64,000 bases of DNA from assembly GCF_000150955.2 (NCBI RefSeq), contig NC_011669.1:1928993-1992992 (forward strand), read 5' to 3'. The notes beneath the pieces were generated by a model. It saw only the letters and a program-made list of their open reading frames with translations, was not told where the DNA came from and made no database searches. The stretch comes from Phaeodactylum tricornutum CCAP 1055/1 (Eukaryota; Bacillariophyta; Bacillariophyceae; Surirellales; Neidiaceae). The translations under genes and the position numbers were made by a program. How positions within the stretch are numbered: the stretch's first letter is position 1; the number at the start of each line of letters is the position of its first letter. This document shows positions 13,232-56,111 of the stretch, one piece after another.

Positions 13232-14047
13232 ATTGGATATACCAGAAGGATTGGCTTGTTAAGGAACATTCATTTAGCAAGAAGTGTATTGCAGTTGGGC
13301 TCTTTTGTAGTCTGGCAGTGTTGGTAACACGCAGCTAAAGTACTCTGATCAGTACCTATGGTATTGGCTAGCTTGGGGTGCAACGAGACAAGTGACATAC
13401 TTCTACGACACCCAAGAAAACGCATCTCTTGAATACAACAGACCCACCAGACCGATATTAGCAAATGGAAACTCCGCTTATTTCTCTGATTTTTGAATGG
13501 CAAGGCCTACCGATTCCCATTAGAAATATAATAGTATAGTTACTTTTTTGTTTTCCTTCACGCTCGAGCTACTAGCAGTAAGTGGTTTTGTGTGTCGTTA
13601 AAGGTGTGGTCGTTACGTTTCCATAATTCGACTATTTTCGGCAGCTCTCAAACTTCGCCATTTTCCTGAAGTCATCTGGATCGCTATGTCCATATTCTTC
13701 AGTCACTCCTTCTTCGTTTGTGTTTACAGGTACTCCGGGCGCCCTTGCATTGCTTATCACTGTCCTAGTAGTAACCCAGTTCCATCGCACCTTTCACTTT
13801 ATTGAGATTAGAGCTAGCTCGTTCACAGTCAACTTCATTTATGGGATACATGTCGCTCTCTAGCAGACATGTCACACCTCTAAATCAAAAACTAATTCGG
13901 TGCAAGGAGACGAATATTGTGTGGTATCGTATTCAATCTCACAGTTGACATCACCGAACTCGAACGAATAGGCCACTCCCGTCCATTGCTGATAGTAGCA
14001 GTTTTGTCTTTTTCAAATAGTTGTTTGACGAAAGCCATCATTCTACG
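13232..14047. promoter_or_regulatory. Intergenic upstream of plastid membrane protein, with one TCACAGTCA
   Basis: About 820 nt with no credible gene. It carries an exact TCACAGTCA at 13823..13831 and a near match TCACAGTTGA at about 13939, both upstream of the ATG at 14048. Confidence 0.5.
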
Positions 14048-14854
14048 ATGGGTATCAAAAGGCTCTTGCTTTTCTTGTCGGTGTCGTTTTTGACAAGACC
14101 AGGATGGTCGTTGGCGCCCGCAGTTCGAATATGCTACGCTCTATCCCGGGCCCCTTATGCACGCCAGACAACCTCTATTCATATGGCAATTGATTCTAAC
14201 AAAGAAATCGGTACAGAAATAAAAATGAATCAAGAAATTTCAGGACAATCAAGAATGTCCGCCGAAATCGTCAGCGGCGGCGCATCCCAGGAAAAAGCCC
14301 TCACAGGAACGGTCAACGAGCGGCTAATGCAAGAACTTGAAGCCGAGAAAGATAAAGAAAAGTTCGGGGCTCGATCTAAACTTGGTAAAAAGCTAGGATT
14401 AGCTGCTTTTCGGTCACAAAAGACAGACGCAGAACGCGAAGCGGCGATTGCCGAAGCTAGGAATCTGAACGGGGTTAATCCTCTTGTGACGCTTGCTGGA
14501 TCTCTTGTGGCACTGGGGATCGCGGCAGGGCTGTGGGCAGCCACGAACTCACTGGGCGCCTTCTTTACCTTGAATCCTGTAGTCAGTGAGTTCTACTTTG
14601 TCGAGAGGAGCGCTGCCGTTTTCCGGAATGTGGCGATGGGCCTTATTTCGCTTGCAAGTGGGTTTTTTGGCGTTTCGGGGCTGGGTATTTTTTTGCTGGG
14701 GATGAGGGTTGCTTATGGAGTTGTAACCGGGGAGTTGGACCCGACACCCCTAAAAAAACCAAAGTCGGAGGGACTAGAGATGCCCAACGTGTGGGCGTTG
14801 ATGACAACGACAAAACCCAATCGTCGCGTGAAGAAAAAGGATGACAATTCCTAG
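14048..14854 (+). CDS. Plastid two-helix membrane protein (DUF3082-like)
   Basis: 268 aa from the ATG at 14048; the longer reading starts with TTG. The N-terminus is a signal peptide (IKRLLLFLSVSFLTRPGWSL) followed by an Arg/Ser-rich stretch, consistent with plastid or secretory targeting, although the junction lacks the typical Phe. A charged middle region (EKDKEKFGARSKLGKKLGL) precedes two membrane spans (PLVTLAGSLVALGIAAGLWA; NVAMGLISLASGFFGVSGLG). This layout resembles DUF3082 proteins of cyanobacteria and plant plastids, whose function is unknown. The match is by pattern only. Confidence 0.6.
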   Translation: MGIKRLLLFLSVSFLTRPGWSLAPAVRICYALSRAPYARQTTSIHMAIDSNKEIGTEIKMNQEISGQSRMSAEIVSGGASQEKALTGTVNERLMQELEAEKDKEKFGARSKLGKKLGLAAFRSQKTDAEREAAIAEARNLNGVNPLVTLAGSLVALGIAAGLWAATNSLGAFFTLNPVVSEFYFVERSAAVFRNVAMGLISLASGFFGVSGLGIFLLGMRVAYGVVTGELDPTPLKKPKSEGLEMPNVWALMTTTKPNRRVKKKDDNS

Positions 14855-15368
14855 CCTTTGAATGCCTGTAGTGTAACTCAAATTACTAACGACATCTGTG
14901 CTGCAAGCTTTGCATGTGTTTGCCAAAGACTACTGAATTGACGTGACTGTGAGTTGATGCTGTGTTTACTATAGAGCGCAATAGTTCCTTTTGGGTTCTA
15001 GTTTGTTTTGTTCTCTGTCATAACACTTTCAGAACCGTGTTGTCAGATAGAATCAGGGACTTTGGGTAGTCCAGGGAATCCGTGACTTAAGCTTCAACGT
15101 CGGCGAGTCGCGTCCAGTCATGATCACGGAACATGTTTCGACGGGGTCAAAATCGATGGCGGAAAAACGACCACAGAGATGCGCCCCAGTTTTAGCAGTG
15201 TATCCACGGTTACATCACACGCTCTAGACAACTTTTCCTCACAACTGACAGTGCGTATCAAAGAACCCTGGTTAGTTTCCTATCACACGGCATTCGCCAC
15301 ATCAAATTGATTAACTGCGTAACAAATCCAATCAATTTGCTGTAGGAGAATTTCTGAATTTCTATAGA
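14855..15368. promoter_or_regulatory. Intergenic upstream of tryptophan synthase, with one TGACTGTGA
   Basis: About 510 nt, no gene. An exact TGACTGTGA is at 14944..14952. Confidence 0.5.
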
Positions 15369-17677
15369 ATGAAATTGGTGTCCATTTTCGGGTTGATCGG
15401 TTGCATTTCGTCGTCGTTCCGATCTAGTTTCGGTTTCTCGGTTGGATCTACTCTTGTCGGAGCTCGTATTTCTTCAACCCGGTCAACTGCGTTGAACGTT
15501 GCTTCTGTTGATTCCCCTACAGTTGCAGACATGGAGCGTGGTGTTGGTGGACGTATCGAGGATGCCTTTGCGGCCGCGAAGGAACAGGGCGAAGCGGCCT
15601 TTGTGACGTTTGTCACCGCCGGTTATCCGACTGCTGCTGGTATGTACACCAGCCGATTCTATTCTGCTTTATCAATTTTATGTTTCCTCAAACTCCTCTG
15701 CTTTTGACTTACTCAGATACGCCAGCGATTCTCATGGCCATGCAGGAAGGTGGGGCGGCGTTGATTGAACTTGGAATTCCGTACACAGATCCGCAGGCCG
15801 ACGGAGCTACGATCCAGCACACCAATCAAGTAGCAATCAAGGGAGGGACGTCGGAGATTCACCAGTGTCTCGACATGGTAAAGAAATCTCGCGAAATGGG
15901 ATTAACTGTGCCCGTGGTTCTCATGGGATACTACAACCCCTTCCTTCAGTACGATGTAGACAAGCTTTGCGAAGAAACCAAGGCTGCCGGAGCCGATGGT
16001 TTCATCGTTGTCGATCTTCCTCCCGAAGAGGGTATTGCCTTGAATAAGGCTTGCATTGCCAATGGGCTTTCCAATATTCCCTTGGTAGCACCTACTTCGA
16101 GTGACAAGCGTATTGCTTCCTTGACAGACATGGCTTCTACCTTTCTATACTGCGTATCAGTTACAGGAGTAACTGGCGCGCGTGAATCCCTTCCTCCGGA
16201 TCTGGAGGAGTTCATTACACGCGTACGTTCCAAGACGGAACTACCTTTAGCGGTCGGTTTCGGTATTTCAAATCCTGAAATGGTAAATGGTGTTGCCAAC
16301 ATGGCCGATGGTGTTGTGGTGGGTAGTGCGATTTTGAAGGCTATGGATTCGCTTGGAGACACTGCTACCACCGAACAGCGTGCCGATGCAATTCGTGAGG
16401 TTGTGGCTCACTTGAAAACAGGTACGAAACAGTCGGGCGATGCAAAGAACCAGTCAACTAAACTTGGTCAAATCCCAGCGGAATGGACTCTGGGCGAGAA
16501 CAACAGCCGATTCGGGAAGTTTGGCGGGCAGTACATTCCAGAAACCCTTTCGGTCGCCTTCGAAGAAATTGAAGCGTCCTACAATGAGCTGAAGGACGAC
16601 CCATCCTTCCTTGCTGAACTCGACGAATACCGACGGGACTTTGTTGGTGGTCCGACGCCTTTACACAGAGCGGACCGCCTGACGGAACTTGCCGGAGGCG
16701 CGACGATCTGGTTAAAGCGCGAAGACTTGGCACATACGGGAGCTCACAAGATCAACAATGCAATTGGGCAAGCCTTGCTTGCCAAGCGAATTGGAAAACC
16801 GCGTATCATTGCCGAAACGGGTGCTGGACAACATGGAGTCGCCACTGCAACAATTTGCGCCAAGCTCGGCCTCGATTGCACTGTCTACATGGGAGCGGTT
16901 GATTGTGAGCGTCAAAAGCTTAACGTTTTCCGCATGAACACTCTCGGTGCCAAGGTGGTACCTGTACAAGATGGGCAACGGACTTTAAAGGATGCCATCA
17001 ACGAAGCGATGCGCGATTGGGTCACCAACGTTCGCGATACGCATTACTTGATTGGTTCCGCTGTCGGGCCTCATCCATTCCCAACGATTGTACGTGACTT
17101 TCAAAGCGTAATGGGTCGCGAGATGCGTGCCCAGATGCTTGAAAGGGCCGGAAAGCTTCCAGACGCTGTTGTGGCGTGTGTCGGGGGTGGATCGAATGCC
17201 ATAGGAGCTTTCCATCCTTTCGTTAATGACGAGACTGTTGAGCTTCACGGAGTGGAAGCGGCAGGCTACGGGATCGACAAAGACGAAGAACATTGCGCGA
17301 CTCTCACCAAGGGAACACCCGGGGTACTCCAGGGAGCCATGACATACGTTATTCAGCAAAAGTCCGGTCAAACGCTCAACACACACTCAATCTCTGCGGG
17401 TCTTGACTATCCAGGTGTTGGTCCGGAGCACGCTTTCTTGAAAGATAGTGGACGAGCTGTATACGAGGCAGTCACAGATGATGAAGCACTGGAGGGCTTT
17501 AAATTGATGTGTGAATATGAAGGTATCATCCCGGCCCTTGAAACGAGCCATGCTATCTACTATGCGGTCAAGCTCGCGAAAAAGCTCGGCCCTGGCAAGG
17601 ACATTGTAATCAACATGAGTGGTCGGGGAGACAAGGACATGCCGCAGATCGCGAAGATTATGGGCGTCGAAGTTTAA
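15369..17677 (+). CDS. Bifunctional tryptophan synthase, alpha-beta fusion, plastid-targeted
   Basis: Exons 15369..15639 and 15717..17677, intron 15640..15716 (phase 1), 743 aa. A signal peptide plus Phe junction ([13 protein letters not shown]) indicates plastid import. The alpha domain (about residues 55-320) has the catalytic Glu in [15 protein letters not shown] (Glu108), plus [13 protein letters not shown] and VGFGISNP. The beta domain (about 335-743) has [13 protein letters not shown], the PLP lysine in [12 protein letters not shown] (Lys435), and [12 protein letters not shown]. Alpha cleaves indole-glycerol-phosphate to indole, which channels to beta and condenses with serine. The order alpha-then-beta is that of fungal and stramenopile fusions. 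All key residues seen are intact. Confidence 0.97.
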
Positions 17678-18676
17678 ACTTGGAATTGACATGAATATAG
17701 TTAGGTAGCAATTACAACCTACTCATTGTTCGATACGTTGTGTTAAGAATTCCTGAGCGGTCCTTTGCCCGATTGGACGTTAGCGTTCTGGCATTTGTGC
17801 AGATTGAAGACTTCATGGGTTGCTGAATGTTTCGTTTGACATGTAGCTACCAATGATCTCGCCACACGGTCGATCGCATACACGCATCCAAATCAGACAG
17901 TCTGTTTGTCCAAATTAGGAGAGAAGCCTTGCAAGTGTTGTGGAGGTACGTCTCCTCTCAAGTCTCTCTTGCTCACGGTTAATTCAATGAGTTGTACCGA
18001 TTCGGCGACTCGTAAAGCCTTTCCCGGTCGAGTTTTACTTTACATTGGTCAATCAATCGAGAACGGTGAAAGTAACGAAAAAGTGAAGAGATTTTTGGCA
18101 GTGCTGGCATAAGTGGTTTAGTGGAATTGTAAATAAAGAGGCATAGAATGCCAGGAGGAAAAGAGCTCTCTCGGACGGAGACAGTTTTACATTACTACAA
18201 CAGGCAATCTGCAGGCAAACCAGGAAAAATTGGTTTGCAATGTAAACGCAATCTAGTTTGTCGGGCAACACAGATGCTGGCAATATCGCCCGCTATTATG
18301 GGGTGGACTTGCATTGACTGTGAGCTGCACCACTATTCGTCTTGCTAAAGTGTACTGAAAATATGAATTGTGGTCCTGTGCTCCTGCCAGTTCCTCGCCA
18401 CAACAATGTGTCCTAGTCACAGTCAGTCGTTTTCATGCTAGCAACGATGAGATGGACAGACGGGCAACACTTACTGCTAGTAGTAGCAGCCGACAAAAAT
18501 GGAAAAGCGGCTGACGAACTTGCATTAAGGTTACTTTTACCAGCAGCATAAGATTGGCGCCGGCGCCAAAATGGCGGGAGTATGATTTTGCGCCGTGGTG
18601 ATACGAGGCAACCATTTTATGTAAAGGAAATGGCGAAACGCGCCAGTATTTGAATCATTTCCGTGTTATTGACGCC
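17678..18676. promoter_or_regulatory. Intergenic upstream of E2F, with two 9-mer motifs and E2F-like sites
   Basis: About 1 kb without a credible gene. It has TGACTGTGA at 18315..18323 and TCACAGTCA at 18417..18425, then a GC-rich cluster of E2F-like sites at 18553..18640. Confidence 0.55.
18553..18640. promoter_or_regulatory. Cluster of E2F-like binding sites in the E2F gene promoter
   Basis: Within 40-125 nt of the ATG are ATTGGCGCC (18553-18561), GGCGCCAAAA (18562-18571, reverse complement TTTTGGCGCC), ATGGCGGGAG (18571-18580), TTTTGCGCC (18586-18594) and GGCGAAA (18632-18638). The E2F consensus is TTTSSCGC. The first two form the palindrome GGCGCCGGCGCC. Confidence 0.6.
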
Positions 18677-19935
18677 ATGAGTAGCAATCAATTAGAGCAA
18701 CAACACCTTTCATCTTCGATTGCTTCGCCACAAGTTCAATTTAAGATTGAATCTGACTCAACGGATAAATGCATGGGCGAGGAACTTATGGACGCAGCAG
18801 TTTCAGCAGCAGTTGCGCATGCGGCCGAATCGATTTATCTCTACTTGCCCGGCAAATTAGCCGGAAGTAAATCACGTCAGGCGCATACCCTGAAAGATCC
18901 CGATGGAACTGAAAAGATATTTAATTCTGCACTCGGATTTCTGGCTCGAAAGTTTATTCATGTTTTGTTCGTAAGTGCATTTAAAATTGATTACGAATGG
19001 AGCTATCGCCTCTTTTTCTCAATGTGTTTTTTCTATTCCAAAAGGCATCTCCAACTTGCTCAGTTGATATGAATGCAGCTGCCCTTCAGTTGGAAGTCCC
19101 TAAGCGGCGGATTTACGATGTAACGAATGTACTCGAGGGTGTGGGTCTCATCGAAAAACGATCCAAAAACACAGTCGCTTGGAAAGGGAGTGAGCTTCTT
19201 CTTGGCTCGTCCTTTTCAAGTGCCGCCAAGCAGAGAATTGATGAGATTCGCGATGAGATTTCTGACCTACATTCTCAAGAAGCTTCACTTGATCAATGGA
19301 TGGTGCAGCTTCAGAAATTGCCGCTTTCTGGAGAAGGACAAATGGTGAGCACTTGCGATATCGTCAAAGCGCTACTTTATCCAGTCGGCAGCCAAAGTGG
19401 CAAAGAATTGAAAGATGAGCTTGTTGATGAGAGTGGAAAGCCGCAGCAAGCGGTACTGGCTGTCCACGCGCCTTTCGATAGCATTGCGCATCTTCCAGTC
19501 CACAATATCGGCTCCCCGCAACGGCAGCTTTACGTCGGGACGAAGCCTGGTTTTCTAAAACATGGATTCGGCGCTGGGACTACTGTTGATTTAAAACGTA
19601 AGGGTATGATTTCGCTGAAGTCACGTAAGGGCATCAAAGTTCCCCGGATCGACGATAGAGTTACTGTATATCTCATGCCGTGTTACTTTGACAATAAAGA
19701 CAAAAAAGTCAAGTCACTTGGTGCACGGCAACTTTCTGATGATCCATACACATCGGCAGCTGCAGCAGCAGGTACATTGTCGGCCGAATCGGCTCAAAAA
19801 ACTAAAACCTCCCAACCAGATGTTGTGGGAGTACCGAAACGATCTGCAAGCTGGGATGTTGCTGAAGCACTTGCCAACGAAACCGGGGTTACAGATTTTT
19901 TTGGAACAGAACCGGTCGATGAAATGGCCGTTTGA
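18677..19935 (+). CDS. E2F: E2F family transcription factor
   Basis: Exons 18677..18970 and 19045..19935, intron 18971..19044 (phase 0, GTAAGT..AAAAG), 394 aa from the first ATG. The winged-helix DNA-binding domain spans the intron: [13 protein letters not shown], then [20 protein letters not shown] and [20 protein letters not shown]. The [12 protein letters not shown] recognition helix is canonical. A leucine-zipper-like coil ([20 protein letters not shown]) and a marked-box region ([17 protein letters not shown]) follow, so this is a DP-dependent E2F rather than an atypical E2F7/8. It would control S-phase genes. A C-terminal acidic segment ([12 protein letters not shown]) may be the Rb-contact or activation region. 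Confidence 0.95.
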
Positions 19936-20284: not shown

Positions 20285-20742
20285 TATAAAAAGCGGCCGA
20301 CAGAAAGCTCGTTGCCTATGTGGAACGATTGTGACGTAGATGCTATCGGCAACCTTCTACGTTGCCTTTTGTTGCTTGGCAGTGAATTGTGAATGATGCG
20401 GCTGCTTGGTCAAAACCGAGCGAATTGGTCGACACCTGCTGTGACTCACAGTCATATAACAATTACCAATACATTATTGACGATTGACTTTGCAGGCTAT
20501 TGATTAGAGAATAAATAAATAACACATCACCCAAAGTCTGATAGCAAGTCAGCGTTTTGACCGTTCGCCACCCAACATACAGACGTTTTGACCGTGACTT
20601 CCCAGAAACCGGTCTCTCTGTTATAACTTGTTAGGCTCCGCTCACGCTGCACAACAACAAAAAAAGGTCGATTTTCATTTTGGTTTTCACATCCTGAAAC
20701 CTTCGATTCTGTTCGTTCCATATCTTGTATGGTGTGAGGCAA
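20285..20742. promoter_or_regulatory. Divergent promoter with one TCACAGTCA
   Basis: About 460 nt between two head-to-head starts. Exact TCACAGTCA at 20446..20454. No other feature seen. Confidence 0.5.
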
Positions 20743-25043: not shown

Positions 25044-25492
25044 CGTCGATTCTCTAGCTGCAAACAAAAGGTATACTAATCACAAAATATGATGTTGAAG
25101 TGAGTGTACTTGTGATTTGACGAATTTACAAATACATTCTTCAGCGTTCTTTTGCGTTGGACAAAAATTAAATCTATTGTAAATTTCCTTCAGATTCCTG
25201 AAACGCTAGGCATTAGGACAACTCCAAAAAGATGCCGATGACGCCTTTATTTGTGCTACTGTAGACTAGTTAGAGTGTTGTGTTATGATGGGCCTAGAGC
25301 ATTTGTCATTGAGACGAAGCAGCTATGGAGTATTCACCAAAGAAGTGCCTAATGTACAACCAAAGTGGATGAGCAACCGGATGGATGGCTACATCAAGTT
25401 TGACAGTGAGTCGGCAGTCGAATTACTTCCGGTTCTCTTGATCGGAAATTCATACATAGTGGCGGGCACAACCTGCTGCAGTCTCGCTAGTA
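25044..25492. other. Intergenic between two plastid-protein genes on the same strand
   Basis: About 450 nt holding the promoter of the lipocalin-like gene and the 3' flank of the next gene. Nothing else recognised. Confidence 0.4.
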
Positions 25493-26212: not shown

Positions 26213-26699
26213 GCTTTATTCGCGTGTGATGCCTACAATTCTGTTTTGTATCAGAGTCAATAACATAGATACATTACGATGGTCGAATTTTTAACGGTGA
26301 CACCTTATGAGATGCGAATTCATAGTCACAGTCAACGATCGCAGACATTTCTCGATCAAACACTGTAGCAGTATGATAGCCCCAAAAGGATAAAATTATG
26401 ACACCAGACTCCCACTCACCGTCAAAATCATCCATCTATGGTTAGGGCACGGGTTCCTTGGGCCCATGGACAAATCTGAGAGCAGACAGACGAAACATAA
26501 TTTTGATTCTCTTCATTTCCGATTTCTCCATCGCTTTTTTCGCAGTTGCTTATTGAAAATAACAGCAAATCGAGAAAGAGCACCATGAGGATGCACAGGT
26601 GCGAAACAAAATAAGAGTGACAAAAGCTTTAGTTGGTGTATGCACACTGAATGCTAGCTCACGACACGATTAAAAACTGCAGTAATCGGCTTTTTCAGT
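26213..26699. promoter_or_regulatory. Divergent promoter with one TCACAGTCA
   Basis: About 490 nt between head-to-head starts. Exact TCACAGTCA at 26326..26334, 114 nt from one start and 366 nt from the other. Confidence 0.5.
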
Positions 26700-31739: not shown

Positions 31740-32134
31740 TATGTTATCGCATTTCGTAGCGGATACAAACAACTGGTTGGCAATTGTCCTAATCTCTCAT
31801 GCTGTCAAGTCTCCTCTTGCCATTGAAAACATGAATGGGACATGAAAAATCTGACGGACTGGGATTATCTATTGAGACGGTATGTTATACTGACTGTGAA
31901 AATGGGAAAACTGGCACCTGGGACAAAAATTCCTAGTGCCATGAAGCTTTAAATGATGTTTATTTGAATTACAAACACTCAAACCGTGACAATGTAACAG
32001 GTCGCCAAGTTCGACTTGTTTGGGCTTTTGATAGGAGCCCTGGGGAAGGAAGCGAAAGCCGTTTCCTGTCGAACCCTGTCTACTTGGACAAAGGCACAGT
32101 TGCATGTCAATCTGACTTGTTGTACGCCGGCTCT
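31740..32134. promoter_or_regulatory. Divergent promoter with one TGACTGTGA
   Basis: About 400 nt between head-to-head starts. Exact TGACTGTGA at 31891..31899. Confidence 0.5.
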
Positions 32135-36651: not shown

Positions 36652-39600
36652 TTACTGGAATCTATAGGTAAATCTTTCCACAACATCGGTCGTCGCAAGG
36701 GATTCCTCACCACTTGCTTGGTGTATCCGCCACACTTCCTCCAAGAAAGCTCCTAAATCTGCTGGGGTAAGAATTTTTTGACGGCACCGTTCCAACACCC
36801 TCAGGGTTAGAGTCTTGCACTCATCCCCGAGAGCAAAGTAAGCTTGTCGAAGTGATTCTACCACGCTGGCTTCTGTTTCCGACCATTCGCCAACGCCCAC
36901 TACAAAGTACAACAGATTCGTCGCACTTTGAATAGAGTTGTAGTCAAAGTTTCCGCAAGAGCCAACGAGAAGACTGTGAACAATCTCGCTCCTTTTACCC
37001 AATATGGATTCAGTTGCATATGATCGAACATGTTGGTCTTGCGACATACCAAGTCGCGTCTGGAACATTTCACAAACATGAGATTGCTACTCAGAAAAGA
37101 AGAGTTTGCATCGAATCATATTGCCAAATGCCAACACTTACCACCGAAAGTATGAACCCAATGGCTTCGACCCCAAGTTTGGGGTCACTGTCATTAATGG
37201 ACTCAACGGCCGAATTAAAAGCGCGATAAAAGAGCATATCGCTATTTTGATCATAAAAGAGCATATCGCTATTTTGATCATGGCCCACTCGAGATGATAG
37301 ACTCAGTAAAAAAGTAGGGCAAAACTCCATCATCTTCTTTAACAGTGACAACGCGCTGCAAAGGGCACTATTGGAAAGAGACTCCGAGGAACCTCTGGGG
37401 GGAGATTTGCTTTCGTATGCGCGTTGCCCTTCATCTTGTTCCTTAGAACGGATCCAGGCAGATCCTAGATTAAGCCGTGTACAAGTGAAAGCCCGTTGAA
37501 GCAGTTCCGCCGTTTGCTTAGCCAGATCGAAATCGGGGTCAAGCGTGCGTGTATGAGGGGCGTTCTCTAAAAATAGACCATACGTGTCAGTCAGCTCTTC
37601 AAGAAAAGCAAATATAGCCAGAGCCTGGTTTGTAGAGTCACCGGGAGCTCTTAAAATAGTAAATGCCAAGCTGAAAATTTCTCGAAGAATTGATGCATCC
37701 CTGGCTTCAGTGTAGACTGCAGGTAGTAACTCAGCAAGAAAGAACGCTAACGACGAAGCAATACTCTTTTGAACAAGAGCGATGAGATCTGATTACGTCA
37801 AAGTTGAAGCGCAAATCACGAACAAGCGCTTACCTTATCGTGAGAAAAGCTTGTTGCAATCTTGGTCACAGTGGGCCAACTTTTTTGAACCATACTGATT
37901 ACTGGCTCTTCCAGTTGTGTGCGTCGATTTGAGGATGTATTACACCCACTTTCCATAGTCGTAGCCTGAATTGACCCAGCTGTTGCAAATGTTCGGAAAA
38001 GAGAAGCCAATAATCGTATCTCATCCGCCATTTGAGATGAAATATCCTGAAGCCTATTTCCCTGTGCGAATTCTGCAGCAAGCTGATTGATGTACTCTAG
38101 AGCAGGATCTACTAATCCTACCAGGATTTCACCGCTTGAAGCACGTTTAGAAGCGCTCGCTGCTGCAAAACATATCCCGGTGCACAATGCCACTCGTTCT
38201 TTTAGAGCGATAGTGTTTCCTCGACGAATCACGCTGTATGATACGATCCATGCATGGGACAATGATGAAAGAATCGCAGGGTCTGTAAAGCGTGAAGGGG
38301 CAAGACACAAGATACGCTCAAGGGCCAACGATGCCTCGGTAAGAGGAGACTCACAAGTTTCCCTTTCCATTTCACACTTTTTCCCGTCCCTTATGTAGTT
38401 TGTTGCCGACAACGAAAACGCAGATAACAGCAAATCGGCAGCTATGCCTAAACCATCTTCGTCTTTGAACCATGACGAGTACTGTCAATAGAAAAATATT
38501 GAGCTACTGGGGGAAAACATAGCATGCAAGGCAGGCCAGGCCAGCTTACCTGGCGAACAAAGCTGCAAAGGCGAGCAAGGGTGAGCGGGTTTCCAATTAA
38601 GCTCCGCGGTTTAGAGGAGAGGGACTCCGAGCACCGCTTCATTTGCGGAGAATATTGCTTAAGCTCCTTGCCTTGTAAAGACTCCAAAGCAACTGCTTCG
38701 AGGCAAAAAATGGCTGCTTCTAAATGGAGGCAGATGTCGGGGGTAGCAGTCGGTAAGCAAAATTCCTCTATTGCAGAAGTACAAGAATTCATATATGTTG
38801 TGGAGTTCCCTCTCCAGCAAGCAAGTAAAGAATCACTCAAAGTGGTCTCCCTAAAAGCTTTGAATTCCTGATAGTTGACACCGCAAGCGTCCGTTTCAGC
38901 TAGGGAAACTGAGCCGTGTGGGCTTATATTATGAGGAGTGATTGCGCGGCGTTGAAGAATAGGAAGTAGCTCACGGTCGAGATTCGGGGTCGCTGGCACG
39001 AGTTGAGATAGAGCCTGGAGAGCAATGGCACAAATATTCACCGACGGGTGGGCCGCACCCTTAAGCAGGAGATGTACTAGACCATCGTCTACCCGTTTGT
39101 GCATTTCTTGGGATGGCAGGTTGAGCCATGTTTCACAAACAGAAGCGCCAATGCGAACCAAATTTCGGCAGACATCATGGTCCCCCAATTTCTCGCGCTC
39201 CGTGAAGCGAAAACGTTGCAATCCCACAGCGGAAACGAGTTCCTCGACAATATCACTCATCTCCCTGGTCTCAATAAGTGCGAGCTTGACGGCATCGAAT
39301 TTGGAGTGAAAAGTCGACTCATCGAGCTGTAGTATGTGTTGAAGCTGCTTCATGCGCCCAATTGAAACATCAACATCGTCGGACACGTGGACAGTGGATT
39401 CAATGAGCTCAGCTAGGGCGTCTATGGCTTCATGGGAATCAGAATACATTGCGTCGTTCAGGACTTCAACAATGTTCACCTACATACATGTATCAGAGTA
39501 AGGCCCGATTTGAGAGAGATTTGTCACGAGATCAATCATTCGTAGCTTACCTCGGCTTTCAGACAAATATGTTTGACTTGGGGTAAACTCAAATCAGTGC

Positions 39601-42018: not shown

Positions 42019-42567
42019 GGCTGCGTTCGAATATTTTTAAATTTTGCGTACAGCAAAGAATCCTTCTCTTCGGTTCCAAGTATCCAGCAAGGTTCGTTGC
42101 TCTCTGTCTCTACTAACTGTCAATAGTCCCGTCCCGTCCAGCTTGAATCGTCCAGTACCGACCGAGAGTGTTTGGAGGCCAAAACGTGACGCAGTCGTGC
42201 TGACTGTGAAAGAGAGTTGATGGATCTGTCTGTCCTGCTGTCTTCGAGCTGTCTGTTTGCACCGACTGACTGACTGACTGCAAGTGCGTCACGCCTGTGT
42301 ACGGTCAACCTCTGGTCACGAAATGTGACATATGGCAGACAATTATCTTGATGTGTTTGTGACGCCAACGAAAAACGCTGGTTTTCTTTCACCCAGAGAA
42401 ACTATTGTAACTGTAAGAGCGATGTCGGCACGACGAGAGTCAGAAATTTGCGAGGCGAGGATCGTTTTCGTCTATACCCCGACGTGTAGATCAAGGCGAG
42501 TGCTCTTGTTCCAACGTAGACAATCATTGGGAAGAATTGATATTACCCAACAGTCAGTAGCCGCACC
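42019..42567. promoter_or_regulatory. Divergent promoter with one TGACTGTGA and an ACTG microsatellite
   Basis: About 550 nt between head-to-head starts. Exact TGACTGTGA at 42201..42209; a short (GACT)n run at about 42264..42280; CAACAGTCAGT lies about 10 nt before the PheS ATG. Confidence 0.5.
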
Positions 42568-45143: not shown

Positions 45144-45646
45144 CCAAAATACTGATCACTACATTCCGTCTTCCAAAGGGATTGGTAGAGCTTCGTTATG
45201 GGATTTCTACCGAGTTTGTTTGGTCCAACGAGCCTAATGGAAATGTATTTTGCCATTTTCTTCGGATTTGTCGCTCTCGATTTTTTCGTCCGAATGTACA
45301 TATATACCTAACAGTAAAAGCGGTCGGTCCGTGCCTTTGTTCACGTCATTTCGTTGCGCTAGCGAGTCACGATGAATGGTGAACTATTCGCCCTCTTTGA
45401 TTGGCTGTGTTAGTCCCTTTCTTCCGGGATCTGAAATCGGACCTTCGGCTGGAACAAAATCCTTTTGTTGTCCATCGCGTGAACATTCTCTGTCAACTCG
45501 TGTTCGCTGCCATCCTACAGAAGCGCGTGTTGCTTGCCAATGTAATGGCAAGGTTTCGGACACAGAAGCGAGATTTTCGTCAGATGGGCGCGCGGGGTGA
45601 GAATGGCGAGTACTCAGTACGCGGAAGGTATTCACAGTCAGGGCCG
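45144..45646. promoter_or_regulatory. Divergent promoter, with TCACAGTCA next to the proteasome-like start
   Basis: About 500 nt. Exact TCACAGTCA at 45632..45640, only 6 nt before the chosen ATG, so it probably lies in the 5' UTR. In-frame upstream ATGs (45545, 45584) would place it inside the coding region instead. Confidence 0.45.
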
Positions 45647-46723: not shown

Positions 46724-48604
46724 TTACACCGCCATTTCCATTTTGATAGTTTTGTGCGGTTGGTACCCAACGACGGTAAAGTCTGCAAAGACGAAATCGT
46801 CAATGTTTTGCTTATCCGGGTTGATTTGTAGTTTGGGAAAGGCCCGGGGGGTGCGCTCCAACTGTGTTTGCAACGCATCCACGTGATTGAGGTAAACGTG
46901 CGCGTCGCCAATGGTGTGAACGAAATCGCCAGGCTTGCGTCCCGTCACATGGGCTATCATGTGCGTGAGTAAAGCGTACGACGCAATGTTGAACGGCACC
47001 CCGAGACCCATGTCGGCACTGCGTTGGTACATTTGACAGGACAACTCGTTCTTTTCGGTATCGACCTGTACAACGACGCCGAAATAGAGAAAATACGTGT
47101 GTCAGACCCACGGAGACGCATCACACCAACGACACACTCGCCGTACGTACGTAAAATTGACAAAACATGTGGCAGGGCGGGAGCGCCATGAGTTCGAGAT
47201 CAGCAGGATTCCAGGCCGACAAGATAATACGTCGGTCTTCGGGATTGTTCTTGATCTTGTCGATGCATTCGGCCAACTGATCCACGCCCTTTCCGGTATA
47301 ATCGTCGTGCATGGTCCCGTAGGTGGCACCGAAATGGCGCCACTGGAAGCCGTAGACGGGTCCCAAATCGCCCACTTCTCGATGCCCCAATCCCCGACTG
47401 TCGAGAAAGTCACGTGAACCGTTCCCGTCCCAAATGCGAATATCTTTGGCGGCCAAATCGTTGGCGTTGGTATTGCCCTGGGGTGTCAGAAATGGGAAAG
47501 TGAGTTTTACGTATAGGCAACCACCGAGACACCTATCGCCACGGCCCAGGGTGTGATCCTTGTTTACGTACCGCAACGAACCAGAGGAGTTCTTCAGCGA
47601 CGCCTCTCCAGAAGACACGTTTGGTAGTGAGGAGGGGGAGAGTCCCGTCCCGTAGGGAAAAGCGCATTTGTGTCCCGAACTGACTAAGGGTGCCGGTGCC
47701 GGTGCGATCTCCACGACGCACGCCGTGATCCAAAATGTGTCGACAGAGATCAAGATACTGTCGTTCTTCCGCATTACCGTCGGTGGGTGGCTGTACGGTT
47801 ACGGAAGCAACCTTGCGGGTGTATTCGAGAAAGCGGTAGGTGATCCCCGAAGGCCCGTCCGTGTGCCACGCTCCGGTCTCGGGAGCGTTACCGTTTTCCT
47901 TGTTGGTCGCGGTGGTAGAAGTCTGCCAGGGTTGCGCTTGCCATTCCGCGTCGGGCAATGGAGGGAAAAAGGCGTCAAATTTGGAGTCGGCGGGCAGGTT
48001 GGCGACTTCAGTGTAAACGACGCGATTGACGAATTTCTCTCGCAAAGCCTGCTCGTAGACTTGTCCGCCACCGATGACGAACACGTGTCCGACGGCTCGT
48101 GTGGGTTGCGCGAGCAGTGCGGCAGCATCGGCGAGCGACGTGGCTGTGAGGACACCGTCGGGCCACAGGGTACGTTCGGGGTGACGCGTCAACACGACGT
48201 TGATGCGTCCCGGCAGCGGGCGGAAACGGTCCGGAATGCTGTCCCACGTTTTGCGACCCATAATGACGGCGTTGGTGCCTCCCGTTTCCGGAGGTTGCGT
48301 CGTGACGGCCTGGAAGTGACGGAGGTCTCCCGGTAATCGCCAAGGCTGTCGAAAGGAAAAGTGAGTGAGTGAGTGATTGACTGTGATTGCAAAAAAGGAA
48401 GCCGCCCGCACACACGAGGAGACCAATGGCGTTTACGCTTCCCAAGGCCCAGTCGTTGTCTCCCTGTGGAGCCCGCAGTCGAGTCCACCGTAGCGCCTTA
48501 CGTAGCGTCCGTATGCAAATACAAATACGTACCAGGGAACCTTGATAGCCAATGCCTCGATGTGAGGCTGCCGCCGCCACGACGGCAGCCATTTCCTGGA
48601 CCAT
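46724..48604 (-). CDS. DHFR-TS: Bifunctional dihydrofolate reductase-thymidylate synthase
   Basis: Exons 48604..48533, 48345..47572, 47477..47151 and 47065..46724; introns of 187, 94 and 85 nt, all phase 0; 504 aa. DHFR part (about 1-210): [14 protein letters not shown] joined to [48 protein letters not shown] part (about 225-504): [34 protein letters not shown], the catalytic Cys in [34 protein letters not shown], and [16 protein letters not shown] methylates dUMP and oxidises methylene-THF to DHF; DHFR reduces it back. The fusion is typical of plants and most protists. Intron 1 contains TGACTGTGA (48378..48386). Confidence 0.97.
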
Positions 48605-49515
48605 TCGGCGGATCTGTATTTTGGAAATAAAGAACGGCACCGGAGTCCCGAACGGACTTGGACGATTGCAAACACACAAGTGTTTGTGTGTTTATATATG
48701 TATACTGTGTATCCCTAGAGACCGTCGACAACAGAGATATGCTGGTGGTGGTTGTTACAATCGAGCAAAGTGTACCAGAAAGGGAAACGCCAAGGTTGCC
48801 AACACCAGAACACAAACGCAACTCTCGGAAGTGACCAAGGACACGCACAATCAATACTAATAGTAATGGGGAGTAGCATTTTTGTCACCACACCACAACA
48901 AACCCTAGCGACGTCATTGCCGTGCACGCCAACCTCACAGACACACGACGCGGGCGCGCCCTCCTACCATGCCCGCCTCCTTTGGTATGTTTCTCACGAA
49001 AACCCGGAAATCCATTCCGATCGGTACCCAACAAAAACTGGCTCACAGTCAGAGTTCACAATAGGAATGTGTGCGCTTTAACCCTACCCTATTTTCTGGG
49101 TGTGACGTGTTCGCGTGTAAGGGGGTCCGAATCCAATCCCCCCTCACTCAGTCTCACAGTCAGGCTCTCGACGAATTCGACCCGACCAGACCACCGAACT
49201 CACAATGGCGTTTGGACTGTGAATACGGAGGCCGTCGTTCTGTCTCGGGTGTACCATAACTACACGTTTCGCTGCCTTTCCTGATCGTCGTTCATTAACG
49301 AGTGGGTTTTACTGCAAGACCGGACCATAGATTGATATCCAGGCACCGAACACGCAGCTTCGTACGAAAGTGGACAACTTGGACGGATCCTTCTGCGGTG
49401 CTCGCTCCGACAAACACAAACACACGTACACGTACACACATAGATACACACACAACTATATACAAGTGAATCGCCAATCGCTTGATTTTACCAGCGTAGT
49501 CCTAAGCTTGCGGGC
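48605..49515. promoter_or_regulatory. Divergent promoter, DHFR-TS / FAD oxidoreductase, two TCACAGTCA copies
   Basis: About 910 nt, no gene. Exact TCACAGTCA at 49043..49051 and 49154..49162 and a partial GACTGTGA at 49214. A TATA-like run (tttatatatgtata) lies near 48689, and a CA-rich stretch (about 49414-49460) sits before the oxidoreductase ATG. Confidence 0.55.
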
Positions 49516-51276
49516 ATGACGTTCCCAGCGGAAGCACCGTTCTGGATCCGGGCAGTCCTCGCTTGGACGGTACTCGGTTGTGTGCTCCGCGTGCCTGTAA
49601 GTCACGCATTTGTACTCCAACCACGATCCTTCAACGGTTCCCCCGCTCCCATACTCGGTTCCTTGCTTCCGGGAGCACCCCAAGCGCGTGCCACCACCGA
49701 ACAATCTCTCTTTCGACGTCTCCGGCGCCGGCGTCCCGCACCACCAACCGCTTCCGACTCCTCCGACGAACCCCAATCCGCCATTCCTCCGCGTACTCCC
49801 GCCACCATGCCCGCCACACCCATTGTCAACAAAATGGAAAGCTTTCCCAAGGAAGTTACCCGACTCCAGGACAAACCCAGTGGACCACCCACGGAATCCG
49901 CCGCCGTTTGTGTCATTGGCGGTGGCGTCAGTGGATTGACCGCGGCGCTCACTGCCGCTCGCGCCGCGGACAACAGCCAGTCCGTGGTGCTCCTCGAAGC
50001 CAGCGAGACCCTGGGCGGGCGCGTCCAGTCGGATGTCACCGAAGATGGTTTCGTACTCGATCGCGGATTCGCCGTATTTATTGAGGAATACCCCGCCGCC
50101 AAGCGCTTGTTGGATTACGACGCCCTCCAGTTGGGCAAGTTCCTTCCCGGAGCGCTCGTCAAAATTCGAACCCGCACCCGGCTCGCCAAAGTAGCCGATC
50201 CCCTCCGACAACCGGAAGATCTGTTGGCCGCCATTGCCGCACCCGTTGGATCCATTCTGGACAAAATTGCCCTCCTGCCGCTAATCTTTACGGCCCGATG
50301 GAAAAGTGTCGATGCACTCTTTGAAGAACGAGAGACGGATACCTTATACGCCCTACAGTACCGCTGGGGGCTCGGCGCCGGTATTATTGAGCGATTTTTC
50401 CGACCGTTTCTGGAAGGCATTTACCTCGCTCCACTCGATCAGCAATCGTCTCGCATGTTCATGTTCGTCTTCAAAATGTTCTCCGAAGGCGCCGCGACCC
50501 TACCCAAGGGTGGCATGGGTGCGGTGGCTCACCAGCTCGTGGACCAGGCCCAAGCCGCCGGGGCCGACGTTCGCGTCAACGTTCCCGTCACACGAATTTA
50601 TCAAAACGATAAGGGTTTCCTGGTGGAATCTCTCGACGGCAAAACCCGCATCCAATCCCAATCCGTGGTTGTGGCCACGGACGGCACGGTAGCCCAACGG
50701 ATAGTCTCCCAAATCAATGGCTTTGAATCGCTAGATTCTCTCCCGGAACAGCCCCAACGCCAGGTCGGTTGCCTTTACTACGGATTCACCGGTCCCGCTC
50801 CGGTGGAAGACCCAATTCTCATTCTGTACGGAGGGGACGACCGGGGCTCCATTGAGGCGCCCATCAACAATATTTGCTTCCCCTCCGTTGTCACCGACGG
50901 CTACGCCCCAAACGGGTCAAACTTATGCAGTGTTACCATCCTTGCCGACGCCATGGCATACTACCACGAAAAAGAAGACGAACTTGATGCCGTCGTCCGC
51001 TCCCAGCTCGCCAAATTTTTTCCCGAACAAAAAGAAAACATTCTGGCTCGATGGGATCTCAAGGGCATTTACGATATCGAAAATGCCCAGCCGGCACAGC
51101 TCGGTGGGCCCATGCCGGCCAATGTTAACGGAGGACGGGATCTTTCCACCTATCGTGGTAAGGATCTTCCCCGTGGACTTTTAGTTTGCGGGGATCACAT
51201 GGCCACGGCTACGCTCAACGGGGCTCTCGAAAGCGGAGAAAGTGCCGGTATAGCCGCGGTCAAGTCAATTGCGTAG
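49516..51276 (+). CDS. Plastid FAD-dependent oxidoreductase, amine-oxidase/phytoene-desaturase superfamily
   Basis: 586 aa, single exon. Presequence: signal peptide (AVLAWTVLGCVLRVPVSHAF) with Phe junction, then a Pro/Arg-rich transit region to about residue 125. The dinucleotide-binding fold is textbook: AVCVIGGGVSGLTAALTAAR, then VVLLEASETLGGRVQSD. Further blocks are DRGFAVFIEEYPAAKRLL, IIERFFRPFLEGIYLAPLDQ and the C-terminal FAD motif GLLVCGDHMATATLNGALES followed by GESAGIAA. This matches the superfamily of carotenoid desaturases, protoporphyrinogen oxidase and amine oxidases. The specific substrate cannot be named. GC-rich third positions mark this gene as strongly codon-biased compared with its neighbours. 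Confidence 0.85.
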   Translation: MTFPAEAPFWIRAVLAWTVLGCVLRVPVSHAFVLQPRSFNGSPAPILGSLLPGAPQARATTEQSLFRRLRRRRPAPPTASDSSDEPQSAIPPRTPATMPATPIVNKMESFPKEVTRLQDKPSGPPTESAAVCVIGGGVSGLTAALTAARAADNSQSVVLLEASETLGGRVQSDVTEDGFVLDRGFAVFIEEYPAAKRLLDYDALQLGKFLPGALVKIRTRTRLAKVADPLRQPEDLLAAIAAPVGSILDKIALLPLIFTARWKSVDALFEERETDTLYALQYRWGLGAGIIERFFRPFLEGIYLAPLDQQSSRMFMFVFKMFSEGAATLPKGGMGAVAHQLVDQAQAAGADVRVNVPVTRIYQNDKGFLVESLDGKTRIQSQSVVVATDGTVAQRIVSQINGFESLDSLPEQPQRQVGCLYYGFTGPAPVEDPILILYGGDDRGSIEAPINNICFPSVVTDGYAPNGSNLCSVTILADAMAYYHEKEDELDAVVRSQLAKFFPEQKENILARWDLKGIYDIENAQPAQLGGPMPANVNGGRDLSTYRGKDLPRGLLVCGDHMATATLNGALESGESAGIAAVKSIA

Positions 51277-51579
51277 AAACACTATTCCTCCCTGCAACCT
51301 CCCCATCGGCGCTCTGTCGCCGTCGTTTTCATGTTCAGTGGTCACTCGACTTGCCTACAATTACACGCGCACGCGTACACACACAGACACACGCCATTTA
51401 CCACAAACAGCGGTCTAAAACGAGTAGTAACTTCGTATGTTTTCGTTTCGCTTTAGCCGATTCTTATTCGTAATGATTGATACAATTTTCCAACGGGGAC
51501 TTTCGTTACCGCCCAATCGTGATTCGACCGAATACTCACTGACAATCAGGGTCCACAACGCACTGTACCCGGTACGATC
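51277..51579. other. Convergent intergenic, CA-rich
   Basis: About 300 nt between two stop codons, with a CA-rich microsatellite-like stretch near 51364-51392. No gene. Confidence 0.4.
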
Positions 51580-53020
51580 TCATGAATCCAACAACCCGTG
51601 CTGTTGGAGTATATCCTTGACGGGGACAAAGTTGGGTGCGTCCACGTCCGTCACGAGATTAACCAAATCTCTCCAGAAACCTTTCAAGTGGTTGGCAAAG
51701 TCTTCCGTGATGGTGTTTTCCCGCGGCGCCGCCGGATTGGCGTTGACTTCGAGTAAGTATAGTCGGTTATCTTCCGTCACCATCAAATCCAACCCGGCCA
51801 TGGCGAACTTGCGAATCGGCGTGGGGCCGTCGTTGTCGAGTTGGGTGCAACGCACGCGGCCTCCAAAGTCCGGCAGTAAGTGCTTGCCAAAGGTCTCGGC
51901 CACGAAGGCTTCTGTCGCAGACTTGAGGTTCCGTGACATGAGTTCCTCGACTTGATCGATCAGGACACGTTGGGTAGTGGTGGAAAGAGCGCCGTTGGTA
52001 ATGTAAGCTTTGCGGTCACGCTCGGTACCGCCGTCGGGTGGAACGGGGACGCCAGCCACCCGGACTTCGTGTCGATTGTATACAAAGACGTCGACCAAAT
52101 CCGGATGGTCTAGGTTTTCCACGGCCACGACGTAGGTTCGAATGTGAAATTTACGGCCGTCAAAAATAAGTAGGGAAGGAACCACTTCCGCCTGCAGCAC
52201 TACAAAATCGAAAAACACGACGAAAACGGTTAGCCACCAGAAAGAGAGGGAGAAAAGGTCCCCATATCCAGAACCGTCAAGCTGTAGTGTGACGAGGCAG
52301 TAGACACAGAACGAGCGCCCAAACGAACGTACCCCAACTCGGGATGCGACCCTTGGCCTCGATGAGATTGTCCAAAAAGGCCGGTTCGGCTTCGGCTCGT
52401 TGTCGATGTTCCTCAATGACGACATGGATTTCTTCCGCGTTCTTGACAAAGAAGATACCTTGACCTTGGCTTCCCATGGGTTCCTTGAGGACGGCAACCA
52501 CATTGGCATCCTTATTGGATTCCACAGCGGGCAACTGCTTCCCCACAACGTTCAGGCATTCTTCGTGCGTCACGTCCCAATTAATCAAGACCGACGGTGG
52601 CGACAATTTCAAGTGATCGCATCCCCACCGCTGCATCGTCCGAACGAGTTCATCCTTATCTTCCAGTCCGTCAAAGGCCGCCGACGTGCCGTGCACGGCG
52701 TAGACAATATCGGTGCCGTGTACAATTTCGAGCTTGAGCGTGGCGGGATGGAGGCCTCGTTCACGTCGGCTGGTCCGGCGTCGACGAGCCGACGCCGGCG
52801 TCGCGTTGGCGGGCACTGCCGCCGCCGCCAGGAGGGAGGACGGCAAGGCCGACGGCATATCCATCGATTCCATTGCAGCGTGTGCCATGTTATTCATGAC
52901 CCATTCCCACGGGTGCCGGACTACGTAACAGATCCTCTGGTCGGGACTCTGTGTCCACACGGGAACGTTCGATGCCGGCGGGGGAGGAGGAGGAGGAGGA
53001 ACTACACGTGAAAAGACCAT
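51580..53020 (-). CDS. ATP-grasp protein of the tubulin-tyrosine-ligase-like type
   Basis: Exons 53020..52333 and 52199..51580, intron 52200..52332 (133 nt, phase 1), 435 aa. The splice joins IEAKGRIPSW to VLQAEVVPSLLIFDGRKFHI, giving the W-V-x-Q..GRKFxxRxYV pattern of TTL enzymes. The ATP loop is VAVLKEPMGSQGQGIFFVKN and the metal/ATP segment is GLDLMVTEDNRLYLLEVNAN. The N-terminus has a run of eight prolines (from a GGA-repeat tract at 52981-53000) and an Ala/Arg-rich linker. TTL-like enzymes ligate amino acids to tubulin or other proteins. The architecture is clear, but the chain lacks a recognisable tubulin-binding region, so the substrate is open. Confidence 0.75.
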
Positions 53021-54040
53021 AATTGATACTGTGAAAACGTGTCGTTGCGAGTCAGGTAACGGACGACAGGCACACGCCGAATGTCTCGGCGGAGAGTTGC
53101 GGGTTGGACAAGCTCACCGCGTCGAGAGAGTACGAGAAGGTCGACCTAAGTCTTATACCAACCAATCACAGACAATGTGTCAACGTGTGTCTCTCTTGCC
53201 CATCAATCCTTGACGGGATTGTAACAGAGACTATCCCGTCTGATTTGGGATGAATTGGCGAAGGGGAGACTGCGGCTGCGGCGGCGTTGGACTTTACACC
53301 CAAGGCCGTCGTTGCGTGTGTTGGTTGGGTCGGTTTCGTTGGTTTTGGGCGTTCGGTCTCCGGATTGTTTTTTATGATAAAAAATAACGTTAGTGCGACG
53401 TGAGGAACAGGGCGCGTGGAGGAGTTTCCATGTAAGGATGTCCGCGTGAACGTAGAGATAGGCCAGGCACCGTTGGGTATTGGTAGGGTTGGATCGCTGA
53501 CCAGCCTAGTAGTGATAATTACGTGGGTAAGACATGGCAGCTGGTTCCGAGGAAGAGGTGAGAGACGGACAGACGCGATCCTTTTTCGGTTTTGTCACGA
53601 ACGATTGGAATTGTTTCGATTGGTCCGTATATATCCGTATTCGATTTTGTGTGCGCACCCGCAAGAGTCGGTCCTAACCCGACCCTTGGCTGCACGGCGA
53701 AAGGCGTCGTCACTCGCAGTTTCATTTCGTTGGGCAACGGAACGGAGTTCGCATACGCACGACAACTACTGCGGACGGGCGTCACAACTAGCAACGTCCC
53801 AGTACCACTACCTAGCTTTTTACTTTCCGGGAGTGAACCATGAGGCCAGAGACGAAAACAAAACGAAAAAAGAAGCAATTGTAGAGGTGGAATGGCAGAC
53901 GCAATAGCTGAATTTGTCTACACTGCTCCATGTCTAAAGTAAATAACAGAAAGTGGGAATGCAAATATCGAGAAAAAATACCGGACAGGACGCGAAAGCA
54001 TCCTGCTCCAAAGACACATCATCTACCACCGTCCGCTGGC
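53021..54040. other. Long intergenic region between TTL-like start and desaturase stop
   Basis: About 1 kb. A 163-residue plus-strand frame at 53416..53907 has no recognisable content and no convincing start. No tRNA, repeat or exact 9-mer seen; ATACTGTGAA lies just before the TTL start (about 53027). Confidence 0.4.
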
Positions 54041-55488
54041 TCAAGCCATCCGACCATAAATCCAGCCAAAGGATTTGAGTGGATCCTCGTCTTCGGTAAC
54101 TTTCTTCTTTTTGTTCATCGATCGGGTCGCCAATTTGCGATAGCGTTCCGGCAATCGGCACAGGTACTCCCGTTCCTTTTCGGCTGCCGGTGACAGACCT
54201 TCCAGGTGCTCCAAATCCCACCGTTTCACCAGATGGTCGATGATTTCTGCGTAATCGAGGGCTGTATACACACCCGTCTTCTGGGCAACCATGGAAAAGT
54301 TATCGTACAAATCCGGATCTTTGCCATCCGTCATCTGTTCCGCAGGCATGACAATCTGTCCACGCATCATGTCACCAAAAACGTGAATGAGTCCGTCCGG
54401 ATCACGCTTTAAGATTTCTTCGGAAAAGATTTGATAAGCCTTCTCGTGGCGACCTTCGTCGCCCGCGATCTTTGCACAAATCTTGTTCAGATTCTTTTCG
54501 CCGTACGTGCGGGCCAGCTTGCCCACGTTGCCGTGCGAGATTTTGGTCGCACGTTCCTGAAAGGACGTATACACGAATCCGCGGTAGGGGTCTTTGCGGG
54601 CTTGCGGGTTGAATCCGTTCGTAATCAAGTGCTGGATGGTGACCTCGATGTTGCGCATGTCGCAACGGCCGCCCAGATAGAGATATTTGTTGAGCAAATC
54701 GCCGTGCCGGTTTTCTTCCGAAGTCCAACCGCGGGACCAGCGTGCCCAGGGAGATTCACTAGTGCCGGTGGGGTCATCGCAACCTTCAAAGGTATTCAAG
54801 AGCGTCTGGTAGGTTGGGAGAGCTTCTTCCGTCACCATATCGCCAATCAACACGACCAAGAGTTCGTCCGGAATTTCCTTGGCCATGGCACGGACTTCCT
54901 TGATGGAGTCATGCCAATTGTCCTGCGAGAGATCGGGAAGGTAATCTTGCGGCTGCCAAGCATTTTCACCAGTTTCCAAGAGCTATAAGAGACAGATATA
55001 AAAGACCGTTAAGGGGAAAAGAGGAGGATGTGAGACGACGTAGAAACAGAATTGTTGGTTTTGTGTGGTGATTTTACTAGCGGCTGCGAGTGACACTTTT
55101 GACATCACCCAGCAACGTGAGGTTCCGCTGCGGCTCGTAGAGGACCTTTTGTCTCGAGCAAGAGAACGGGGGACTAAGGTAAGCAACAGTAACGGACACT
55201 TACAATTTCATCCACCATGGCTCCGGCAATAGGAGCAATGTCATCGATGACTTCGACGTGTTTGGGATACAAGTAGTTCGTTGCCTTGAGACGATCTTCC
55301 AACGTGTCGGCGTCGAACGAAACCCCGCAGATGTCTTCGTATTCCTTCTTGGTCACTGTTGTGGGGTCCACGGCAACCTTCAGAATGGAAGTGCTGCGAG
55401 GAGTCCTAGTCGCAGGCGACGTGGGAAAGGCAAGCACCGCACTGGAAGCCAAAACCGAACTCGTCCAGAAAAGTTTCGTAGACAACAT
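54041..55488 (-). CDS. FAB2: Plastid acyl-[acyl-carrier-protein] desaturase (stearoyl-ACP type)
   Basis: Exons 55488..55204 and 54982..54041, intron 54983..55203 (221 nt, phase 0), 408 aa. Start is the ATG at 55488; a longer form would begin with TTG. Presequence: LFWTSSVLASSAVLAFPTSP, with Phe junction. The soluble di-iron desaturase signature is intact: WTSEENRHGDLLNKYLYLGG (first E-E-x-x-H) and CAKIAGDEGRHEKAYQIFSE (second D-E-x-R-H), with WARWSRGWTSEE just before. It introduces a Delta-9 double bond into stearoyl- or palmitoyl-ACP in the plastid stroma, feeding membrane lipids and EPA precursors. Length and residues match the family. Confidence 0.96.
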
Positions 55489-55754
55489 GGTCACACTCAA
55501 TCCGAAAATCTGTTGTCAAAAATCAACAGTGAATGGAAGGCGAGAGAGACTAGAGAGTGCGGTACAATAGCACTTGATCTAGATTTGTAAAGTAGCTTTT
55601 CCAGTGCTTTGGCCGACGAGATGTGATGATGTGTCGAATGGAGTCGTTGGGGGTAAGCAAGAAGAACGACCCGAAAGAGGTGTCGTCGTCGTCGGTAGCC
55701 TTCCAAGAGAAAATATCGCGACCTACTATTGCGCGCGAAGAAACAACCCGAGCG

Positions 55755-55772
55755 CACACACACACACACACA
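55755..55772. repeat. (CA)9 microsatellite
   Basis: Nine CA units, followed at 55797..55822 by an imperfect (GAAC)n repeat. Confidence 0.9.
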
Positions 55773-56111
55773 CGTCGTGAATTGCGAACGAGCCAACGAA
55801 CGGACGAACGAACGAACGAACCAACCCGACGAACAACGATCAGAAATCCATCACCGGCGGCGTGGCCCGACTAACCCCTGTGTGACGTCGGCGACTGCTT
55901 CGACTCCTTTCCCCCTGAATTTTTTACTCAAAATGTCTGTCATCCTTCCAGTATTACCTTCCGTCACCCAGTTCGCATCGCAAGCGTCTTTTCGTTTTCA
56001 ATGTAACCTGTACACATATCGTATCCACGAACCATTTAACCCTCGTCGTGAGGAAAAAGGGTTCACAGTCAAGAGAAACATGATACGATTTCGGGAGCTA
56101 GCAACGCTGTG

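Follow-up and report, generated by a model that had tools for sequence, protein, structure and literature searches.

A 9-bp word over-represented upstream of genes in a 64-kb window of Phaeodactylum tricornutum, a predicted protein-binding site in promoter DNA

Because a single 9-mer, TCACAGTCA/TGACTGTGA, recurs in a 64-kb stretch of the genome of the diatom Phaeodactylum tricornutum CCAP 1055/1 (NC_011669.1, positions 1,928,993 to 1,992,992; hereafter the window, with coordinates counted from its first base), we asked what such a word might be. The original prediction, made from the letters of the window, had described it as a recurrent non-coding word and had offered a core promoter element or a general factor site as possible roles. 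The over-representation of the exact word upstream of genes in the window is far above chance, and we believe that TCACAGTCA, with the core TCACNGTCA, is probably the binding site, in upstream promoter DNA, of a broadly used, sequence-specific nuclear DNA-binding protein. Few promoter marks are known in diatoms; the proposals in the portions of the literature available to us comprise a loose initiator consensus, homeobox-like sites that are said to be near-universal, and stress or vitamin elements.

Copies of the word and their placement

An exact search of both strands yielded 14 copies of TCACAGTCA in the window, and every copy of the original prediction (13 plus one in coding sequence) was found where it had been placed. 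In 100 dinucleotide-preserving shuffles the word occurred 0.65 times on average (standard deviation 0.81, largest count 3), so that the excess over the roughly 0.5 copies first expected is borne out. Ranked against first-order expectation, TCACAGTCA is the most over-represented 9-mer of the window; TCACAGTC, which lies inside it, is the top 8-mer (18 copies against 2.2 expected), and TCACAGTCAG is joint first among the 10-mers. When the window was simulated 60 times with an order-4 Markov model, no non-simple 9-mer of any kind exceeded 11 copies; in 400 order-3 simulations of its intergenic DNA, where TCACAGTCA has 12, the maximum was 7. An expectation-maximization motif fit with a zero-order background converged on alternating low-complexity sequence and was discarded.

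To place the copies relative to genes we took advantage of 36 hand-made gene models, which were assembled from stop-to-stop open reading frames (ORFs), Pfam matches on 50 of 70 ORFs, codon preference and N-termini. The models span 74% of the window, with 47.4 kb of gene bodies and 16.6 kb (16,599 bases) between them. Upstream DNA, defined as DNA within 600 bp of a predicted start and outside gene bodies, amounts to 11.7 kb, or 18.6% of the window, and holds 12 of the 14 exact copies (binomial p 1.1e-7). An order-2 model of that DNA predicts 0.14 copies, and the word is the top 9-mer there. There are thus 12 copies in the intergenic DNA and 2 in the almost threefold longer gene bodies, which is at odds with the equal coding and intergenic density that had been named in advance as telling against a regulatory role. 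The exact copies of TCACAGTCA are as follows.

13823..13831, plus strand: 217 nt upstream of a DUF3082 gene (ATG 14048)
14944..14952, minus strand: 417 nt upstream of a fused TrpA-TrpB gene (ATG 15369), directly past the end of the DUF3082 gene
18315..18323, minus strand: 354 nt upstream of an E2F/DP-type gene (ATG 18677)
18417..18425, plus strand: 252 nt upstream of the same E2F/DP-type gene, in an opposite-orientation pair with the copy at 18315
20446..20454, plus strand: 289 nt upstream of a gene lacking a Pfam match (ATG 20743)
26326..26334, plus strand: divergent promoter, 114 nt from ATG 26212 (minus strand) and 366 nt from an mRNA cap methyltransferase gene (ATG 26700)
31891..31899, minus strand: divergent region, 152 nt from ATG 31739 (minus strand) and 38 nt from an ORF edge at 31937 (plus strand) that has no clear start
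42201..42209, minus strand: divergent promoter, 183 nt from ATG 42018 (minus strand) and 359 nt from a PheRS-type gene (ATG 42568)
45632..45640, plus strand: upstream of a proteasome-family gene by 7 nt if its start is the assumed ATG 45647; an earlier ATG would make the copy coding
48378..48386, minus strand: in DHFR-TS intron 1 (48346-48532), starting 41 nt before the intron end
49043..49051, plus strand: between the DHFR-TS and amine oxidase genes, in their divergent promoter, with the two start codons 439 and 465 nt away
49154..49162, plus strand: a second copy between the DHFR-TS and amine oxidase genes, with their start codons 550 and 354 nt away
56063..56071, plus strand: 575 nt upstream of a fatty-acid (acyl-ACP type) desaturase gene (ATG 55488, minus strand)
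59103..59111, minus strand: in the coding frame of an inositol-pentakisphosphate 2-kinase gene

The two gene-body copies are those in DHFR-TS intron 1 and in the kinase gene, the latter of which is probably a chance copy. The intronic assignment made originally is sound: removal of 48346-48532 leaves an open frame that reads as DHFR. The claim that 13 copies lie outside coding exons holds in general, with a reservation for the copy at 45632, which sits within an open frame: it counts as non-coding only where translation begins at ATG 45647, from which a signal-peptide-like stretch runs.

Distances from the 12 upstream copies to the closest assigned start range over 7-575 nt and are 114-439 nt for nine copies; six copies point with and six against the nearest gene. 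The description of an upstream, non-coding element found in both orientations therefore stands, while a core promoter element in the strict sense is not supported by these distances, by the mixed orientation or by the double copies, two exact copies being present in the E2F promoter and again in the DHFR-TS/amine oxidase divergent promoter. The 12 divergent regions of the window hold six copies, in five regions, and the 12 tandem regions likewise hold six copies in five; the 11 convergent regions, which total 2.5 kb, hold none.

When a copy in a divergent promoter is credited to both genes, the exact word lies within 600 bp of 15 of the 36 gene models, and either the exact word or the centre variant TCACTGTCA described below lies within that distance of 17. 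The genes concerned include those for the mRNA cap methyltransferase, E2F, DHFR-TS, the proteasome-family protein and PheRS, among which no common programme is evident, and the word is not tied to one evident gene class.

Form of the word and its place in the literature

Among the one-mismatch variants of the word the highest is a change at the centre, TCACTGTCA (4 copies against 0.62 expected), which the original list did not include and of which three copies lie upstream of genes. Its four copies are given here.

11648..11656, plus strand: 580 nt upstream of a NudC-type gene (ATG 12236)
11893..11901, minus strand: 335 nt upstream of the same NudC-type gene (ATG 12236)
25401..25409, minus strand: 358 nt upstream of a gene at ATG 25043 (minus strand)
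37185..37193, plus strand: within a minus-strand gene model that starts at ATG 40447; probably there by chance

Of the nine positions, the centre one tolerates change best, and positions 1 and 8 have zero variant copies in the window. A centre G occurs twice and a centre C once, in each case between genes and in a region that also holds the exact word; this placement could be chance, because such regions make up 6,728 of the 16,599 intergenic bases. The core TCACNGTCA, in which a centre A is commonest and T next, has 18 intergenic and 3 gene-body copies, TCAYWGTCA has 16 and 3, and YTCACNGTCAR has 11 and 0. The near matches listed originally are real (TGACAGTCA at 4450 and TCACAGTCC at 49214). 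At 26320-26334 the sequence TCATAGTCACAGTCA consists of TCATAGTCA (at 26320) and TCACAGTCA overlapping by three bases, so that TCA appears three times with a period of six.

The word itself had already been published. Taddei et al. 2016 report, in the portion of the text available, a MEME motif 1, TCA[CT][AT]GTCA, from the non-coding DNA of Phaeodactylum LHCX genes, with two copies in LHCX1, two in LHCX2, one in LHCX3 and none in LHCX4, and state that none of their motifs matched a known factor (PMC4915529). To judge by its pattern, which covers both TCACAGTCA and TCACTGTCA, this motif amounts to the same word found independently in Phaeodactylum, and its location in 5'-flanking or intron DNA resembles the placement in the window (12 of 14 copies upstream, one in an intron). 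The two differ in that, in the available text, the LHCX motif is reported just for LHCX1-3 and not as a general promoter word, and in that its C/T freedom at position 4 has little support in the window (TCATAGTCA once, TCATTGTCA not at all). Of the original statement that no factor had been described, then, the part concerning a factor stands, as none was found for the word in the papers searched, and the implied novelty of the word does not (PMC4915529, as far as available).

A general promoter role of the word was not found in the open-access literature among the matches listed, in which figure logos are not text-searchable. The exact string TCACAGTCA together with "Phaeodactylum" gave no match there, and together with "diatom" it gave three papers whose titles are unrelated; word-like strings in papers matched a primer and a vector sequence, the text of three Phytophthora motif papers lacked the hexamers that were looked for, and the available parts of PMC5067629, PMC5935921, PMC10421102, PMC10967249 and PMC4557025 hold nothing on the word. 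A motif called HNS_B, described in the accessible text as common to all response types and given in sequence only as a figure logo (PMC6779911), might be the same word. Within the literature searched, what is new is the spread of the word over functionally unrelated promoters, at 15 of 36 gene models.

We also compared the word with other promoter elements. It shares TGAC/GTCA half-sites with CO2/cAMP-responsive elements (CCRE; TGACGT, ACGTCA, TGACGC) and CRE-type bZIP sites, but in the 9-mer the half-sites are one base further apart and one of them is GTGA. TGACGT itself has 14 intergenic and 17 gene-body copies in the window, which makes it about 2.3-fold denser between genes. A gapless CRE site was rejected as the underlying element, as the gapless form is not strongly enriched: TCACGTCA is mildly raised (5 against 2.66 expected) and TGACGTCA is not (1 against 1.33). 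The METE promoter of Phaeodactylum contains a 14-nt motif, GAAGCACGTGCTTC, whose scrambling abolished reporter expression (PMC12538271, in the part available). Like our 9-mer it is a short, near-palindromic promoter motif, but its sequence is different, with a G-box centre, and a degenerate form of it is absent from the window.

What the word may be

We infer the site of a widely used sequence-specific factor because the word is upstream, free in orientation, sharp, near-symmetric and found beside unrelated genes. A site of DNA-protein contact is preferred over a repeat, an RNA signal or an initiator because the flanks of the 14 copies are unrelated to one another, the orientation is mixed and the centre base is tolerant. 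Bound as a dimer or by making two contacts, the protein would touch both half-sites, TCAC and GTCA, and would activate transcription or keep promoter chromatin open; the same factor probably acts also on the LHCX genes of Phaeodactylum.

For a promoter-opening role the comparison is with the general regulatory factors of yeast (Reb1, Abf1, Rap1), whose sites are short and specific and occur in many unrelated promoters in either orientation. The sites of the window are also short, sharply bounded, present in both orientations and sometimes paired within a promoter, and they occur in many promoters whose genes are unrelated in function (in one window, at 15 of 36 gene models). They differ from the yeast sites in having an unrelated sequence and in being predicted from sequence. 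More tentatively, and with rather less conviction than we attach to a protein-binding site as such, we suggest that TCACNGTCA could be a pan-promoter element of stramenopile algae. On this view a general regulatory factor particular to the lineage would recognise it, marking at least a third of diatom promoters and opening their chromatin. A specific 9-bp word near 15 of 36 gene models could serve as bait for its factor, as a mark for promoter annotation and as a part of expression vectors, and a motif of three light-harvesting genes would become a candidate general motif. The genome measures 27 Mb, over which the density in the window would give about 5,000 upstream copies, an extrapolation from one window.

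Several points weigh against a broadly used promoter site. The material is the sequence of one 64-kb window, and the gene models and start codons are our own predictions, built with the positions of the sites known. Exact copies are absent within 600 bp of 21 of the 36 gene models, and the word is therefore not universal. The absence of copies from convergent regions is only suggestive, because about 1.8 would be expected there by length. The 27 one-mismatch variants taken together are mildly raised (29 copies seen, 15.6 expected), the next after TCACTGTCA being TCAAAGTCA (3 against 0.95 expected) and TCACAGACA (3 against 0.62). A possible preference for Y before the word and R after it, at 11 of 14 copies each, was chosen afterwards from many flank positions and may be chance.

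Of the alternatives, an element specific to one regulon fares best, although we consider it unlikely. The word would then be bound by a factor responsive to a signal and belong to a light, nitrogen, plastid biogenesis or cell cycle regulon, and the window would happen to be rich in its targets. LHCX1-3, which carry the degenerate motif, are responsive to stress and light, and the available text of the same study reports a related 7-mer, [TA]TGACTG, as enriched (p=0.035) in the upstream DNA of genes that nitrogen starvation induces (PMC4915529). Plastid-type N-termini, scored by eye, are encoded by 7 of the 15 genes with a site and 5 of the 21 without, but this association is not significant (Fisher p=0.18), and plastid-gene specificity was rejected on that basis. 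Nor do the site-bearing genes named above, from the cap methyltransferase to PheRS, share an obvious programme.

It is very improbable that the word is a form of the diatom initiator, marking transcription starts. Its TCACA fits the proposed Inr-like consensus TCAH+1W of Phaeodactylum (Kadono et al. 2015), which is reported, in the portion available, in 8,306 of 12,237 upstream flanks of 80 bases and, for the genes named there, at a distance of 26-61 nt from the start codon (PMC4686930), and two copies lie less than 80 nt from an assigned start (45632, at 7 nt, and 31891, at 38 nt from an ORF whose start is unclear). The other 10 of the 12 upstream copies, however, are 114-575 nt from the nearest predicted start, and we rejected an initiator on these distances together with the even split in orientation. 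Moreover, TCAHW on its own is common, matching the intergenic DNA 268 times when both strands are counted, and it leaves the invariant GTCA half of the 9-mer unexplained.

That the copies arose by chance, or are remnants of a dispersed repeat, is harder still to credit. The window does contain other local repeats, such as CTACTAGCTAG and CAGT tetramers, but the unrelated flanks led us to reject a dispersed repeat, neutral repeats would not be expected to cluster upstream of start codons, and none of the 60 or 400 simulations gave any non-simple 9-mer as frequent. Least likely of all is a role in RNA, as a splicing signal or an element of the 5' untranslated region, for which one may cite the copy 41 nt before the end of DHFR-TS intron 1 and that at 45632 (in the 5' untranslated region if ATG 45647 is the start), because six of the 12 upstream copies run antisense to the nearest gene. 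For known RNAs, no Rfam family reached its gathering threshold and ARAGORN, with the bacterial code, called no tRNA.

Other collections and further features of the window

Diatom DNA was sought in viral contigs, with FCP, the TrpA-TrpB of the window and histone H4 as queries, and in genome contigs, with FCP and histone H4; none was found by these scans, each of which used six short peptide patterns that can miss relatives. The scans returned two loci (L001 and L002) that are eukaryotic core-histone clusters in bacterial metagenome-assembled genome records, one labelled Rubrivirga. They look like contamination, because eukaryotic histones sit in contigs deposited as bacterial genomes, and both lack the 9-mer and TCACTGTCA.

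The gene content of the window, with its fused TrpA-TrpB gene and its plastid-type N-termini, is diatom-like. Some further features of the window lie near copies of the word. In DHFR-TS intron 1, TCAC repeats stand right behind the 9-mer, near the 3' end of the intron (48346-48386). A short CAGT tetramer array at 42265-42281 shares a divergent promoter with the 9-mer at 42201. Next after the 9-mer in over-representation in the window, simple words aside, come words of the CTACTAGCTAG/CTAGCTAGTAG type (at 56114-56130 and elsewhere); one such copy, about 45 nt away from the 9-mer at 56063, makes up a near-perfect inverted repeat. Finally, the gene at 15369-17677 joins the alpha and beta domains of tryptophan synthase; its N-terminus is hydrophobic and of plastid type, and the DNA that encodes this part lies upstream of a short intron.

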